This document shows, piece by piece, positions 20,489 to 28,221 of a stretch of DNA of 32,206 nt. The stretch spans positions 1 to 32,206 of the forward strand of contig JAMWCZ010000006.1 in NCBI GenBank assembly GCA_023819225.1, in the 5' to 3' direction. Source of the DNA: Candidatus Omnitrophota bacterium. GTDB taxonomy: Bacteria; Ratteibacteria; UBA8468; B48-G9; JAFGKM01. The notes under the pieces are model-generated. The model ran no database searches. It saw only the letters and a program-made list of their open reading frames with translations, and had not been told where the DNA came from. The first letter of the stretch is position 1. Each line of letters starts with the position of its first letter. Made by a program: the position numbers and the translations under genes.

Positions 20489-21301
20489 TCAATCGCAGTA
20501 AAAGACAGGAATTTTTGAATGTAGTTCTTTAAGATAATTGTTAAACTTCTCCTCAAACTTCATATTCTGCAGAGTCATTCTGGCATTAAGGTATAACTGC
20601 TGATAGGAATTGACTTCTTCATGTCTTACATCTTTAAGAAAAACTACAAGATATCTGTTCCCGATTTTAATGGGACCACTGAGTTTTCCCGGAGAAAGTT
20701 TTTCAATCTCAGATAAAACCTCAGACATAATCTCTTCTCTGGAAAGAATCCCTTCCTCTCCCATATCTGTTTCCTTTGTATTATCAAAGGCATTTATAAA
20801 TTCTTGTGCTGATGATTCACTATCAAACCACTTCAGACGGAAACGATAGTAATAATTACCTTTTTCCTTTAACTCTTTCATCTTCGCTGCAATCTCAGGC
20901 GTAGTTATCTCTATCTTATCAACCACATTCTTTTTTATGATGTTCCTGACCTTTATCTTCTCTTCAACTGTCTTTACAAATATACTATAAGGTATATTAT
21001 CTGCCTCCAGTGCCTTGTAAAAAGACACCTCATCGGGAAACCTTTTCTTAATACGTTCTATTTCAAGAGTGAGTTCATCAAGAGAAACCACAATCCCTTC
21101 ATTCTCCGCCTGGAATAGAAGCATCTTTTCTATCACAACATCCCTCAGTGCCTCTTCATAGTCCTTGTTCTCTTCCTTCATCTTCATTCTAACATCGCTT
21201 TCAAAAACAACCTTGTTTCCCACCATCACAACTGATGTATTCTCACAGTAAAGTCCAGATATTACACAGATAAGTATTGCACAGATAATTATCTTTTTCA
21301 T
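20489..21301 (-). CDS. SurA-like periplasmic protein with degenerate parvulin-like region
   Basis: Signal peptide; VVMVGNKVVFESDVRMKM resembles the SurA N-domain; KLSPGKLSGPIKIGNRYLVVFLKD resembles the parvulin C-terminal strand. Confidence 0.65.
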   Translation of the reverse strand: MKKIIICAILICVISGLYCENTSVVMVGNKVVFESDVRMKMKEENKDYEEALRDVVIEKMLLFQAENEGIVVSLDELTLEIERIKKRFPDEVSFYKALEADNIPYSIFVKTVEEKIKVRNIIKKNVVDKIEITTPEIAAKMKELKEKGNYYYRFRLKWFDSESSAQEFINAFDNTKETDMGEEGILSREEIMSEVLSEIEKLSPGKLSGPIKIGNRYLVVFLKDVRHEEVNSYQQLYLNARMTLQNMKFEEKFNNYLKELHSKIPVFYCD

Positions 21302-21314
21302 TGTCCCCTCTCTT

Positions 21315-22193
21315 TTATTTTGACTTCAATCTCTCTACCTTTTCCAAATAAATCCTTATTCTCCCTTTTTCCTTAAGTTTAGCCATCAAAATATCAACCT
21401 CTCCTTTCTTTTTGAAGGAAACTAGCATCTCCTTTATAGATGGCTTTGCCTCTTCAAGTGTAAGCATCCTGCTTTCTGTCTTACCAGCAAGTTTGATGAT
21501 GTGGTACCCTGCCTCTGTTCTTATAATATTTGCAAGTATATCACCAGGTGTCATCCTTGAAACAAGTGCTGCTATCTCCGGCTCAAGTTTTCTTACATCA
21601 ATCCATCCAAGGTCTCCTGCCTTCTCCTTGCTTGCCGATATGGACTCATTCATTGCTATCAACTCAAACGACTCTCCCAAAGAGAGCCGTTTCCTTACTA
21701 CCTCGGCTTTCTCCTGTGTGGGTAGTACTATCTCAAATAACCTTACTTTTTCAGGTATAAGAAACTCTTCCAGGTGGGTATTGTAATACTCTGTTATCTC
21801 TTCATCGGCAACTTTTATCCTTTCAGTGAGAATTTTATCTACATATTCTTTTGCCATGACTTTTATATAATAGTTTTTCATCATATCATCCACATCTCTT
21901 TTCAATCTTCTCTCATATCTTTTTGCTTCCTGGTAGAGAAGTATCTGATTTATATATGTTTCCACAACACTTTTAGGGTCTACTTCCAGCGTCTCCTTAT
22001 ATACTGATGGAGATGACTCCATCTCAACAAGTATATCCTTTATTGTAACTGGATAACCATTAACAACTGCAACTACATTTCTGTTCTTAAAAAACAAAAT
22101 GAAGTATATAAGTCCAGCAAAAATAATTACAAGAGCAGATATAAGTAATACCCTTTTATTTTTTTGAGAAAGTTTAATTTTTATTTTTTTCAT
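21315..22193 (-). CDS. PpiC/PrsA-like peptidyl-prolyl isomerase, membrane-anchored
   Basis: TM anchor, VVAVVNGYPVTIKDI, parvulin domain VRLFEIVLPTQEKAEVVRKRLSLGESFELIAMNESISASKEKAGDLGWI ... AGYHIIKL. Confidence 0.82.
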   Translation of the reverse strand: MKKIKIKLSQKNKRVLLISALVIIFAGLIYFILFFKNRNVVAVVNGYPVTIKDILVEMESSPSVYKETLEVDPKSVVETYINQILLYQEAKRYERRLKRDVDDMMKNYYIKVMAKEYVDKILTERIKVADEEITEYYNTHLEEFLIPEKVRLFEIVLPTQEKAEVVRKRLSLGESFELIAMNESISASKEKAGDLGWIDVRKLEPEIAALVSRMTPGDILANIIRTEAGYHIIKLAGKTESRMLTLEEAKPSIKEMLVSFKKKGEVDILMAKLKEKGRIRIYLEKVERLKSK

Positions 22194-22216: not shown

Positions 22217-24382
22217 CTATAATATCTCCTGTCTGTATATTATCTTTCTCTTATTTCTATCATACCAGATAATTAATTTTTTGTCTGCTATAATTTCACC
22301 TTCTTCTATTTTACCATTATTATTTATATCCTGCACCTTATGTCCTACTGTTATAATTTTAAATACATTGCTCCTTACGGTTATAAGGTCTATGATTCTT
22401 GAAAAGATAAGTTCTTTCTCCTTTTCTTCATCTATGAAAAAGTCCATTGTATTGTCCCTGAGATTAAAACCATATTTTGTCATCTCCTTGCTTAAAAGTT
22501 CCTGTAGCGAAGAACCATCGCTATATACCCCGAGTACCTCTGATATGTCTTTATAAGGTCTACCTCTTATTATCGCATCCGCAACATCTTTATCAACAAG
22601 CGGAAGGCACATAAGGACAATATCAGAAGCAGTATTTATATTTATTCTTCCATATGTTGGGTCTTCTGGATTATCTACAACTGTAAATTTATCAATGACT
22701 TTTCTGTCAGTCCCATATTTCCAAAGGTCCAGTGTCTTCCAGTGTTCTCTTTTGTGGATAAAAGAAAGTTCTGATATGGAAACCATTCTGTCATTTTTTA
22801 CAACAAAGGATGTAGGCCAGTTAAATAGCCAGTCAGCCATTCCAAACTCACCACCAATCCATGGCTGGAATGTTATATTGTGTTTTCCCGGGGTGGGTTT
22901 TTGTGGATACCAGTCAAAGATACCTGACATCCTTGGGTCATTCTTACCAACAGTTGTCACAGGAGTATCAACTATATATTCAGTATGCTCTATAAGGTTG
23001 TCCTTGCTGTCATAAAGCCGCATTGTGAAGTCCAGTCCTAAATTGGCAAAGAGAGGTATCTTCCCAAGTATATCATCAATAAAACTTAAGGAGCCAGGAT
23101 TTACAGCAAGTATGGGCTCATAATACTGACAGCCATCTGGCTCTCTTATAGGGAAAGGAAGAAAGATAGGAAGAGGCCCTATCTCTGTAGGAATAATCAC
23201 TATAACAATACTCATCAAATCGCCTATGGTATAGTAAGAACGTGGAGGTATCTTTGTTCCTTTTGGTATAACTATTGAAGCAGCCACAATCTTTTCAAGA
23301 ATACTCTTTACTCTTTCAGGTGCTATATCTGTCTCCCCTTCTGTTATATCATCAAGTATAATTTCTGACTCATCATAGACCTCGTTCCAGAAACCAGAAA
23401 AAAGTGTAACTACCCCTTTTATCTTCCAGTTGCTGATATCAAGAGGTTCTGGATAAGGATTGAAAATTTCTATAAACTGTCCACCTATTTCTCTTAATAC
23501 AATTACATTCCCTATGGTCTCCTTTCTCCACGGTCTAACTGCATCTATTTCATTAAAATAAGGGGTCTTATTTATACCAAAAAGTGTGGTCTTTCCCATC
23601 TGATACTGAGGCGGAACACGGCTCTTATCCCTGTAGGCAGTGATATTAAGGGCTATCTGGGCAGCAACTGTATCTTCATATCCAAGGGACTTCAATGTCT
23701 GAAAGAGTGTTTCAAAAGAAGCATTGTTAAGATTTATCCGTTGATTACCATACCTGTCTACATTTAAATCATATGAAAATGTGGTGATATGGTTTTTAAT
23801 CTTCCTGTATATCTCCTCATTTATGCTATCAGCAAGTTTTACATCAGAAGGGACTATATACCTTCTTTTCTCTCTGTATCCAATAATGTTGTTTGCTCTC
23901 CTTTTACCAATAACATCACTGAAGACATCTATATCCTTTACCGTATGGGTTGGCAACCACATACCTGACCCTCCCGCATAGTTGATATTGACCTTCCCGC
24001 TTTCATCCTCAACCAAAACCGCATATCTTCCTGTAATCGCTCCGTCTCTATCTTTTATATAAAACCATCTACTGTCAGGTACCCCATCATCATTAAGGTC
24101 AACCTCATCGCCTTCAAAGGAAGTTCTCCAGGTATCTGTAAATGCATCATATTCCCTACTGTCATTATCAATTTCCCATATCGCTGTATCCAAACCCAGT
24201 CGTGCAAGACGGTATGCTGCCTTACCTGTAAACATCTTGTAGGATGTCTTCTCCCAGAACTTAAATATAAAAAGCAACATCCCTGTAAAGATAAAAAGGA
24301 GTAGAAGAACCATAAGTGTCAGGATTACAGAGGCACCTTTTTTATTCCACAGGAATTCTGATAAGTTTTTCAAATCTCTCAT
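22217..24382 (-). CDS. GspK-like minor pseudopilin, unusually large (721 aa), with lamin-tail-like insert
   Basis: KKGASVILTLMVLLLLFIFTGMLLFIF N-terminus; RINLNNASFETLFQTLKSLGYEDTVAAQIALNITAYRD and RININTASDIVLMCLPLVDKDVADAIIRGRPYKDI HhH-like segments; FIEIFNPYPEPLDISNWKIKG insert. Confidence 0.78.
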   Translation of the reverse strand: MRDLKNLSEFLWNKKGASVILTLMVLLLLFIFTGMLLFIFKFWEKTSYKMFTGKAAYRLARLGLDTAIWEIDNDSREYDAFTDTWRTSFEGDEVDLNDDGVPDSRWFYIKDRDGAITGRYAVLVEDESGKVNINYAGGSGMWLPTHTVKDIDVFSDVIGKRRANNIIGYREKRRYIVPSDVKLADSINEEIYRKIKNHITTFSYDLNVDRYGNQRINLNNASFETLFQTLKSLGYEDTVAAQIALNITAYRDKSRVPPQYQMGKTTLFGINKTPYFNEIDAVRPWRKETIGNVIVLREIGGQFIEIFNPYPEPLDISNWKIKGVVTLFSGFWNEVYDESEIILDDITEGETDIAPERVKSILEKIVAASIVIPKGTKIPPRSYYTIGDLMSIVIVIIPTEIGPLPIFLPFPIREPDGCQYYEPILAVNPGSLSFIDDILGKIPLFANLGLDFTMRLYDSKDNLIEHTEYIVDTPVTTVGKNDPRMSGIFDWYPQKPTPGKHNITFQPWIGGEFGMADWLFNWPTSFVVKNDRMVSISELSFIHKREHWKTLDLWKYGTDRKVIDKFTVVDNPEDPTYGRININTASDIVLMCLPLVDKDVADAIIRGRPYKDISEVLGVYSDGSSLQELLSKEMTKYGFNLRDNTMDFFIDEEKEKELIFSRIIDLITVRSNVFKIITVGHKVQDINNNGKIEEGEIIADKKLIIWYDRNKRKIIYRQEIL

Positions 24383-24968
24383 AATATCTCTTTCCTTCTA
24401 CCTTGTGTGGAAAAGATGTAATTTCCACCTTTATAAGACGGGGTAGTTCTGGCTCAGTTATATAAGCAGTATTCCATCTATCCTTCCACTCCTTGCCGTC
24501 ATAATAAAAAAGATGAAAACTACTTATATTTTCACCCAATACCTGCGCACCAGGGAAGCCAGCAGGAAAGTTAAAATTGTTCTCTTTCCTGTCTATTCTT
24601 ATAACAGATACCTTTACTTTATTATCCTCTCTGTCAAAGTATATATTGAATTTTGCAAGGTCTGATTCAGGTCCCTCAGAAAAAGGAGATATAAACCTTA
24701 TATACTCACTTTCTCCTTCAAAATCTATTCTCGGGTCTTCTTCACACATAGCAGAAACTAAATACCTTTCCATATAATTAAATACCTTAACTGCTTCTGA
24801 ATAGACCTTCTTCTCACCTACCTGCTTACCAAATCTCAAAAGGGAGCTCTTAAATATCGTTATAGAGGAAAAAACAGCAATACAGAATATAACCAGTGCT
24901 ATAAGAACCTCAAGAAGGGAAAACCCCTTATCTCCTTCTGAAACTTCCTGTAAAATATGTATTTTCAC
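24342..24968 (-). CDS. GspJ-like pseudopilin
   Basis: DKG|FSLLEVLIALVIFCIAVFSSITIFK; position between GspI-like and GspK-like genes. Confidence 0.78.
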   Translation of the reverse strand: MKIHILQEVSEGDKGFSLLEVLIALVIFCIAVFSSITIFKSSLLRFGKQVGEKKVYSEAVKVFNYMERYLVSAMCEEDPRIDFEGESEYIRFISPFSEGPESDLAKFNIYFDREDNKVKVSVIRIDRKENNFNFPAGFPGAQVLGENISSFHLFYYDGKEWKDRWNTAYITEPELPRLIKVEITSFPHKVEGKRYYERFEKLIRIPVE

Positions 24969-25296
24969 TTCTACCTTCTTCCTTTCCTGTAATCTCTATT
25001 TCAACCCTGTAAAGTCCTTCCTTTTCTTCTTTGATATTTACATAATAACTGAACAAAGGGTCTTTTTCATCCACACCACTTATAGAAGAAGGGACAGGCG
25101 GACCATCTGGACTCCCATATACCTCTTCAATCAGCGTAAATAGTTTATCTGCTATCTGTGATGCAATAATATATCTCTTGCTTCTTCCTGAAAGTTTGTC
25201 TATTACAGGATATACCCTTAAAAGATAGAGTATACCTACCGCAAGGATAAAAAAGGCAACCAGTACACTTATAAATGTTATTCCTGTCTTTTTCAT
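24928..25296 (-). CDS. GspI-like pseudopilin with Ser in place of Glu5
   Basis: MKKTG|ITFISVLVAFFILAVGILYLLRVYPVIDKLSGRSKRYIIASQIADKL; H-I-J-K gene order. Confidence 0.65.
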   Translation of the reverse strand: MKKTGITFISVLVAFFILAVGILYLLRVYPVIDKLSGRSKRYIIASQIADKLFTLIEEVYGSPDGPPVPSSISGVDEKDPLFSYYVNIKEEKEGLYRVEIEITGKEEGRSENTYFTGSFRRR

Positions 25297-25300
25297 CTCT

Positions 25301-25741
25301 TTACTTTTCTATGAAACATCTACCTGTAAGGTTATGTAGTACAATCTTTATCTCTTTTCCACCTGCGATATCTCTCACAATAAGATACCCACCTGTCTTG
25401 GCAGTTCCATCTGGATTAAAGACAAGTGGAGAAAACCCCGCTGACCTATCTTTTATTATTATGTGTTCAGGGAGATGATATTCCTTATCCACAGGTTGTC
25501 TGTTCTCCCTTAAAACCACAAACTTTCTTTCATTAAATATAACATAAAACTCCTTTCTCTCATTTACTGCATATTCTCTTGCAAGGTTTGCTATATCAAT
25601 AATCTCATTTGCTGCCCTCTCCAGAACCACTCCCCTGTGATACTTAAGAAAATATGCAGTTGTGGGGACCATCAAAAGTGAAAGAATAAGCAGAGATATT
25701 AGAACTTCTATAACAGAAAATCCATATTTTACCCATCTCAT
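25301..25741 (-). CDS. GspH-like pseudopilin
   Basis: KYG|FSVIEVLISLLILSLLMVPTTAYFLKYH ... ANLAREYAVNERKEFYVIFNERKFVVL. Confidence 0.78.
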   Translation of the reverse strand: MRWVKYGFSVIEVLISLLILSLLMVPTTAYFLKYHRGVVLERAANEIIDIANLAREYAVNERKEFYVIFNERKFVVLRENRQPVDKEYHLPEHIIIKDRSAGFSPLVFNPDGTAKTGGYLIVRDIAGGKEIKIVLHNLTGRCFIEK

Positions 25742-27489: not shown

Positions 27490-28221
27490 ATGAGAAAGAG
27501 AAAAGGATTTACATTAATAGAGCTGCTGGTAGTGGTAGCAATCATTGCTATTTTAGCAGCAATGTTGCTACCAGCACTGTCACAGGCAAGGGAAAGGGCA
27601 AGGCAGGCAAAGTGTATAAACAACCTCAAACAAATTGGAACTGCTATGTATATGTATCTAAATGACTATGAAGAGTATTTTCCATACGCCCCTGGTATGT
27701 CAAGCAATCCTGTTCACAGGGCATTAGCACCCTATTTAGGATATCCAAATGCACAATATCAGTATGGTGGACCACGTGGTATTTTTAGATGTCCAAGTCA
27801 CAGGCCCACTTACGCAGGTCCTTCTTACTGTATGAATTTATATCTTAAGAGAAATTACTGGCTACATCCTACAACCGTAGATCGTTATCAACCAGTGAAA
27901 CTATCAAAAGTTAGACACCAACACAGGATTATTATGATAGCCGACGGTAAATATAATGGTGACCCTCGCCTTCCTTATAATCGGCTTCTTGACCAGGTAT
28001 ATACCTCTGGAAATCCTGCAGATTATGAATCAGTTATATGGAGAGGGGCAAATTATTCGTGGGGAACTGCATCTCCGAGGCATAACGGCATACTAAATGT
28101 TGTAATGGTTGATGGGCACTGTGAGTCACTGAAACCAGAAGATTTATTTAAAGACGCCACGGATAATCCACCAGGACATGCCACAACGGGATACTATCAC
28201 TTTTACTCTGGTTGGTTTTGA
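27490..28221 (+). CDS. Pseudopilin-like protein with C-terminal H-X9-DG motif
   Basis: [77 protein letters not shown] fits H-X9-DG exactly; SD aaaggaggg. Confidence 0.92.

Follow-up and report, generated by a model that had tools for sequence, protein, structure and literature searches.

What does a GspK-type protein of 721 amino acids with an apparent lamin-tail domain (LTD) do, and to which machine does it belong? The question is raised by a gene on the minus strand of the window, the 32,206-nucleotide stretch of DNA analysed here, which is part of a 1.52-Mb metagenome-assembled genome (MAG) of an uncultured bacterium that is 92% complete. An earlier note, made from the sequence, described the product as a giant GspK-like pseudopilin in which an LTD is inserted between two helix-hairpin-helix (HhH) segments, and suggested that the insert could give the tip of the pseudopilus a binding surface. 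The open reading frame and all of the motifs quoted in that note are present. The closest named record to the protein, here called LTD-GspK, is from a Candidatus Ratteibacteria MAG and is 79% identical, while a second, recorded as Candidatus Omnitrophota, is 90% identical across a portion of its length.

The kinship with GspK is supported by the GspK model NF037980, which matches all 23 homologues of LTD-GspK. The window protein itself scores 14 bits against a curated cut-off of 130 bits, compared with 87 bits for the genome's own 304-aa GspK. When the ComEA-like HhH (residues 140-208) and residues 273-518 were removed, at cut points chosen by hand, LTD-GspK aligned at 99.0% with the profile built from 14 canonical GspKs (about 304 aa, from the window's class), over canonical columns 51-296, from the helix to the C-terminus. 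The uncut profile gave 98.4%. The protein is thus a GspK homologue, and an unusually long one, as had been claimed: 721 aa lies outside the about 300-350 aa of GspK. In the canonical alignment, the LTD falls between "...DWIDEDDIPRMAGAEATFY" and "...YTPANGPIYNPVEMLLVMG", which corresponds to one loop of the alpha-domain. Since the insert-removed protein aligns with the canonical GspKs at 99%, the alignment places the LTD in this single loop. The likeness to GspK (NF037980, PF03934, PF21687) includes the leader, the helix without Glu5, the DESGKxNxN start, the alpha-domain, the INxNTA HhH and the HIJK gene order, in addition to the end-to-end profile alignment after removal of the inserts. The differences are the length, the extra ComEA-like HhH and LTD, and a link to PilB-PilT-PilC rather than to the type II secretion system (T2SS). 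The N-methylation motif model PF07963 gave no match in the window's GspK.

The proposed placement of the LTD between two HhH segments is too simple. A C-terminal HhH matches HHH_3 in Pfam (residues 579-620, E 8e-9). With RINLNNASFETLFQ, at about residue 215, the core of the GspK alpha-domain begins; in the window protein this sequence obtains no separate HhH match. The ComEA-like HhH at residues 147-200, which is N-terminal to the first segment named in the note, had been missed. The latter is matched by TIGR00426 in 21 of the 23 homologues, with a best E-value of 9.7e-9, and its GIG hairpin, which reads GIGEKKF in distant relatives, is eroded to DSINEEIY in the window protein. A recent duplication of the HhH segments was considered, and the profile matches between them within the protein were short. 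Most homologues outside the window's genus (e.g. L020, L023 and L028) contain an Asp-rich stretch, DDDNDNxxxxDGIDNDGDGxIDExxEGIDEPDEF, between the halves of the first HhH segment. This stretch is absent from the window protein and resembles calcium-binding repeats; one of the homologues that contain it matches Cu-binding_MopE and five match acid_disulf_rpt.

Table 1. Features of LTD-GspK and of the neighbouring genes, with positions in the window.
Feature	Position	Strand	Evidence
LTD-GspK, giant GspK-type putative tip minor pilin, 721 aa	22217..24382	-	ORF listing; GspK model NF037980; insert-removed alignment with canonical GspKs
Prepilin leader, residues 1-16, G16 invariant	24335..24382	-	G16 kept in 23/23 homologues; cleavage predicted after G16
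Hydrophobic alpha-1N segment, residues 17-40	24263..24334	-	Hydrophobic, never Glu, at mature position 5 (23/23)
Insert 1: GspK "DESGKxNIN" start and ComEA-like HhH, residues 129-205	23768..23998	-	TIGR00426 at residues 147-200, E 1.1e-4; 21/23 homologues
GspK alpha-domain, first half, residues 214-258 (RINLNNAS...YRDKSRVPP)	23609..23743	-	Aligns with canonical GspK "...VMGYPENLSDALLDWIDEDDIP"
Insert 2: lamin-tail domain (by homology), residues 273-504, with two lineage-specific insertions	22871..23566	-	Pfam in relatives, hhalign, free-LTD HMM
LTD core block 1 (TPYFNEIDAV...GGQFIEIFNPYPEPLDISNWKIKG)	23408..23566	-	hhalign profile alignments
Insertion within LTD, residues 326-368	23279..23407	-	Mean identity 34%; mostly gaps in most distant relatives
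LTD core block 2 (SIVIPKGTKIPPRSYYTIGDLM)	23213..23278	-	hhalign; mean identity 65%
Second insertion within LTD, residues 391-449	23036..23212	-	Mean identity 42%
LTD core block 3 (GLDFTMRLYDSKDNLIEHTEYIV)	22967..23035	-	hhalign; mean identity 55%
GspK alpha-domain resuming, residues 522-570 (WPTSFVVKNDRMVSISELSFIHK...)	22673..22819	-	Aligns with canonical GspK "YTPANGPIYNPVEMLLVMGF"
C-terminal HhH of GspK, residues 578-625 (RININTASD...)	22508..22651	-	HHH_3 E 8e-9; T2SSK E 0.0017
C-terminal pilin segment, residues 656-720 (ITVRSNVFKIITVGHKV...)	22223..22417	-	Aligns with canonical GspK C-terminus
GspJ-type minor pilin	24342..24968	-	TIGR01711 E 2.1e-7
GspI/PilV-type minor pilin	24928..25296	-	PilV TIGR02523 4.5e-5; GspI 0.031; position between H and J
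GspH-type minor pilin	25301..25741	-	PF12019 E 1.3e-4
PpiC/SurA-type periplasmic prolyl isomerase 1	21315..22193	-	Rotamase_2 3e-15; adjoins K in all relatives examined
PpiC/SurA-type periplasmic prolyl isomerase 2	20489..21301	-	Rotamase_2 4.5e-6; conserved neighbour

In the window protein, the LTD model PF00932 matches 24 residues only (302-325, E 0.0034), with a score of 18.2 bits that does not reach the Pfam gathering score of 34.3 bits, so that this protein taken singly gives weak evidence. Among the full-length relatives, 22 of 23 are matched at E<=0.1 (best 2e-6). A profile of residues 268-508 aligned with 20 free-standing bacterial LTDs at 97.0% in hhalign (columns 31-205, 97 columns), as compared with 0.1-1.7% for ten column shuffles and 0.1-2.2% for other parts of LTD-GspK. 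Most of the signal is in the first block (FIEIFNPY...DISxWxI), and the later, C-terminal blocks alone reached only 20-33%. An HMM built from the free LTDs alone matched all 23 homologues at the place of the LTD (sequence E 5e-9 to 6e-4, in the set of 23). Furthermore, the LTD profile of the window's family aligned with the GspK-LTDs of other lineages at 98.5%, and these in turn aligned with the free LTDs at 98.9%. Seven GspK-LTDs from other lineages exceed the Pfam cut-off (L043 45.4 bits, L049 38.5, L040 38.4, L039 37.4, L041 36.2, L044 35.5 and L050 34.7). Because the Pfam matches in the relatives, the hhalign result, the free-LTD HMM and the LTDs at the same place in other lineages agree, the sequence evidence over these four tests is strong that the insert is a real, though divergent, LTD. 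The earlier note had located it at positions 23220-23505 (residues 293-388), which is the right place but covers only the first half of a domain that starts at TPYFNE (residue 273) and ends at PTPGKHN (about residue 504).

As in PF00932, an INEI-like strand is followed collinearly by xxFIEIxNP...DIxxWxI, IPPxxYYxIGD, LYDxxxNLIExTxY and TPGxxN. The window LTD differs in that it is about 230 residues long rather than 109, due to the two insertions, in that it resides inside a pilin, and in its score below the Pfam cut-off. Domains of this kind are present in the tails of human nuclear lamins. Compared with the PDB, the free-standing LTDs of bacteria hit the Ig domains of lamin A/C (E 0.002), and by homology the window LTD may have an Ig-like fold. 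Searching the PDB sequences with a profile of the entire protein returned HhH proteins and chance matches only, and a search with five GspK-LTDs gave no match. AlphaFold2 models had a pLDDT of 30.8 for the whole protein (3 sequences) and 33.1 for the LTD region alone (1 sequence).

The gene order in the window is H-I-J-K, with the genes for GspH, GspI and GspJ upstream of LTD-GspK. Downstream are two PpiC/SurA-type isomerases, PdxA, KsgA, an IMP dehydrogenase/GMP reductase-like gene, DnaE and MtnA, the names of the last of these genes having been assigned by reading the sequence. The operon H-I-J-K-PpiC-PpiC is kept across the families examined. A gene with a prepilin-type N-methylation motif is also located at positions 27490-28221, flanked by a GntR/LacI-like regulator and a protein of 1166 aa; the whole genome (1.5 Mb) contains 34 such motifs, many of which are in scattered DUF1559/H-X9-DG pilin-like genes.

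LTD-GspK had been assigned to the pseudopilus of a T2SS, and this assignment was not supported. The window genome has a separate T2SS cluster, F-G-H-I-J-K-L-M, on contig C4, which encodes GspF, GspG, minor pilins, GspK, GspL and a putative GspM. Contig C30 adds GspE and a GspD that scores over the cut-off. The GspK of this cluster has 304 aa and matches NF037980 over its full length (E 1.4e-24). LTD-GspK is not encoded with this GspC-M set, which has its own K. Directly before GspD and GspE, C30 also carries a PilO/Amuc_1100-like gene and a second secretin (L107:178-4669), so the contig may serve two machines. A third set, of PilM-N-O-P-Q-like genes with PilB/PilC, is located on contig C53, where PilC (L106:10760-11988) consists of two overlapping ORFs (frames of 249 and 176 aa), perhaps because of an assembly frameshift or a real split.

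Contig C89, finally, carries PilB1-PilT-PilB2-PilC and two pilins, with a PilT score of 432.6 bits against a cut-off of 319.1. In two families related to that of the window, these genes are found in one cluster with the LTD-GspK operon, PilB1-PilT-PilB2-PilC-pilin(s)-...-H-(I)-J-K(LTD)-PpiC-PpiC (L127, L128, L129 and L131), and a further example at a contig start reads PilC-pilin-H-I-J-K(LTD)-PpiC-PpiC (L130). Similar clusters of LTD-GspK and pilus genes occur in G148, G285, G251, G162 and G299. The cluster genes of the relatives match PilC, PilB and PilT of C89 best and by a wide margin, with PilC at 471-579 bits versus 178-201 for GspF. In the window genome, unrelated genes come after the C89 set and an unrelated regulator comes after H, and the split of the cluster over two contigs therefore appears to be real. 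Thus, PilT and PilB/PilC cluster with LTD-GspK in the relatives and reside on a separate contig in the window genome. From the linkage in the relatives we infer that LTD-GspK is a tip subunit of the C89 machine rather than of the T2SS; with a T2SS that has its own K, its most likely role is that of an HIJK-type subunit at the tip of a retractile filament of the type IV-like kind. The clusters of family f2 (L129 / L078 (G025), L127, L128) also contain a pilin-like protein of 578-606 aa (MNIKKKNGVAIIVVIVLIMLFSAIILSVV...) between the C89-type pilins and GspG/H, which is possibly a second giant minor pilin.

LTD-GspK was identified in nearly all of 35 genomes from the window's own genome to its class (same genus, family, order or class), representing five family-level groups, and was not seen in G005, G020, G027 and G028. 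Two of these, G020 and G027, are from one genus and, like G005, belong to the same order or family as the window genome; G020 and G005 have a C89-type PilC, and the absence from these three genomes may reflect loss, divergence or missing contigs. Outside the class, the free-LTD HMM identified an LTD in 17 of 20 stretches (from 19 genomes) matching the family profile, a fraction that is biased upward since the profile itself contains the LTD; one further stretch, L045, has an LTD that appears eroded by eye. The combination of GspK and LTD, for which a search across genomes had been suggested, hence recurs in 17 sampled genomes from 10 GTDB families outside the class, and is not singular, as had been supposed, but common in undescribed homologues of many lineages. 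The GspK-like proteins outside the class are 636 to over 2200 aa long. Those in L039, L040, L047, L048, L052 and L053 are giants of 1441 to over 2200 aa with more large insertions besides the LTD. We found no paper that pairs an LTD with GspK, nor any on Ratteibacteria and type II secretion, and the architecture appears to be undescribed in the papers covered by the search, in line with the absence from described GspKs that had been noted.

These results point to a modular minor pilin, and the explanation that we favour, and consider reasonably probable, is that LTD-GspK acts with H, I and J at the tip of a PilB/PilT filament, with the LTD as binding head and the PpiC pair assisting. LTD-GspK would be a normal GspK chain, consisting of the leader, the helix without Glu5, the pilin domain and the alpha-domain, to which two inserts have been added. 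Together with GspH, GspI and GspJ, it would make up the HIJK tip complex, which would initiate a type IV-like filament and form its cap. PilB would extend the filament and PilT would retract it; their genes are located elsewhere in the window genome and clustered with HIJK in the relatives. The putatively Ig-like LTD would sit at the outermost tip of the filament; in this position it is plausibly exposed and would most likely bind a surface, polymer or cell-envelope ligand. The two isomerases probably help to fold or stabilise the large periplasmic subunit. That HIJK does not adjoin PilB/PilC in the window genome is counted against this explanation, as are the weak matches of the later LTD blocks by themselves and the LTD of ExeM, which could largely be dispensed with in the degradation of extracellular DNA (PMC6085458). 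The minor pilins HIJK form a tip complex that is capped by a subunit without Glu5 (PMC10191384). Since none of the 23 LTD-GspK sequences has a Glu at mature position +5, as in such caps, and since binding domains are grafted onto the tips of other pili, a ligand-binding module at the tip is our best guess for the LTD.

Alternatively, the LTD could be a ligand-free spacer or cap, the bulk of which keeps the tip subunit out of the filament body. The insertion in GspK has been suggested to serve in size exclusion or capping (PMC7248040), and bulk may be selected for in homologues that have further, different insertions and reach 1572 aa and more. However, the mean identity to the homologues is 55-65% in the LTD core blocks, which is similar to the pilin parts (53-59%) and far above the insertions within the LTD (34-42%). 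This pattern suggests a specific fold or surface, and we consider a mere spacer unlikely. Slightly less likely still is a tip pseudopilin of the T2SS, in which the LTD would recognise secreted substrates or shield the tip of the pseudopilus. The H, I, J and K proteins are named after parts of the T2SS, the GspK models match, the genome has a T2SS, and the HIJK complex of the T2SS is reported to be in direct contact with secreted proteins (PMC10191384). But the T2SS cluster encodes an H, I and J and a 304-aa K of its own, and both kinds of K are retained in at least twelve relatives. In the relatives, moreover, LTD-GspK is linked to a machine with a PilT, and it was in no case seen beside a T2SS-type GspF.

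Equally improbable, in our view, is a DNA-uptake pilus with the HhH and LTD segments as a DNA receptor at the tip, as proposed for ComZ of Thermus. The presence of PilT, of ComEC in the window genome and most of its relatives, and of a ComEA-like HhH are consistent with such a role, as is the fusion of LTDs to DNases and the link between lamin tails and DNA binding (PMC4486849). However, ComEC is nearly universal in the sample and hence little informative, and the alpha-domains of canonical GspKs contain HhH-like parts without a known role in DNA binding. Because of ComEC and the ComEA-like segment, DNA is one possible candidate for the ligand of LTD-GspK, but the hairpin of this segment is eroded in the window protein. 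Finally, it is very improbable that the segment is an unrelated strand-rich insert that resembles the FIEIFNPY...DISGW motif by chance, since the low Pfam score and the 24 residues covered in the window protein are outweighed by a whole-domain profile match with clean negative controls, by collinear blocks at the same place in homologues above the Pfam cut-off and by the free-LTD HMM matches in all 23 homologues.

Modular pilins are known to be diverse. The extra non-pilin domain of LTD-GspK is seen in sequence profiles, and its presentation at a pilus tip would resemble that of the binding modules grafted onto PilB and PilC of Streptococcus sanguinis, which differ in being C-terminal modules of the vWA and lectin types on short pilins (PMC8179133, PMC9934059). 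The published survey of modular pilins, which covers 264 architectures, used the N-methylation motif as its key (PMC8179133, PMC9934059). ComZ of Thermus thermophilus is likewise a GspK-like minor pilin with a large inserted domain and a proposed tip receptor, but its insert, which is proposed to bind DNA, is a beta-solenoid between the last two pilin strands, whereas the LTD is placed in the alpha-domain (PMC6561018).

Two other systems were compared. Verru_Chthon cassette protein A (TIGR02600) is a large pilin-like protein of a four-pilin cassette. It gives short local matches in 18 of the 23 homologues, but the window protein scores 19.4 bits over 30 residues against a cut-off of 332 and none of the homologues is near the cut-off; sought as a parent family, it was present in no sampled genome. 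In G148, the genes close to LTD-GspK that resemble PilM, PilO and a secretin give weak matches to the models of the Akkermansia Amuc_1098-1102 pilus-like locus (NF042912, NF038287, NF045709), at 7e-43 for Amuc_1101, 5e-11 for Amuc_1100 and 3e-36 for Amuc_1098, and each of these falls far short of its curated cut-off. The Amuc_1100-like gene on C30 of the window genome matches at 5e-5. A kinship of the LTD-GspK-linked machine with this locus would be only a lead.

More tentatively, and with rather less confidence than in the tip assignment, we suggest that these genes (two PilB, PilT, PilC, HIJK and the PpiC pair) may define a distinct and widespread class of retractile type IV-like filaments, in which a tip receptor built into GspK, the LTD, would replace the separate adhesin PilY1 of the classical type IVa pili. 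To our knowledge, the ligand is known for no bacterial LTD. Bacterial LTDs are without an established role (PMC6085458), and what they do is an open question for which LTD-GspK offers an LTD at a defined and conserved site, within a protein that can be given a predicted position in a machine. The location in one loop also provides a precise truncation for probing the function of the pilus. For genomes of this kind, HIJK genes should not be taken as parts of a T2SS unless the presence of a second, canonical set has been checked for. The architecture points to a way in which phyla that have received little study may provide their pili with a binding head.
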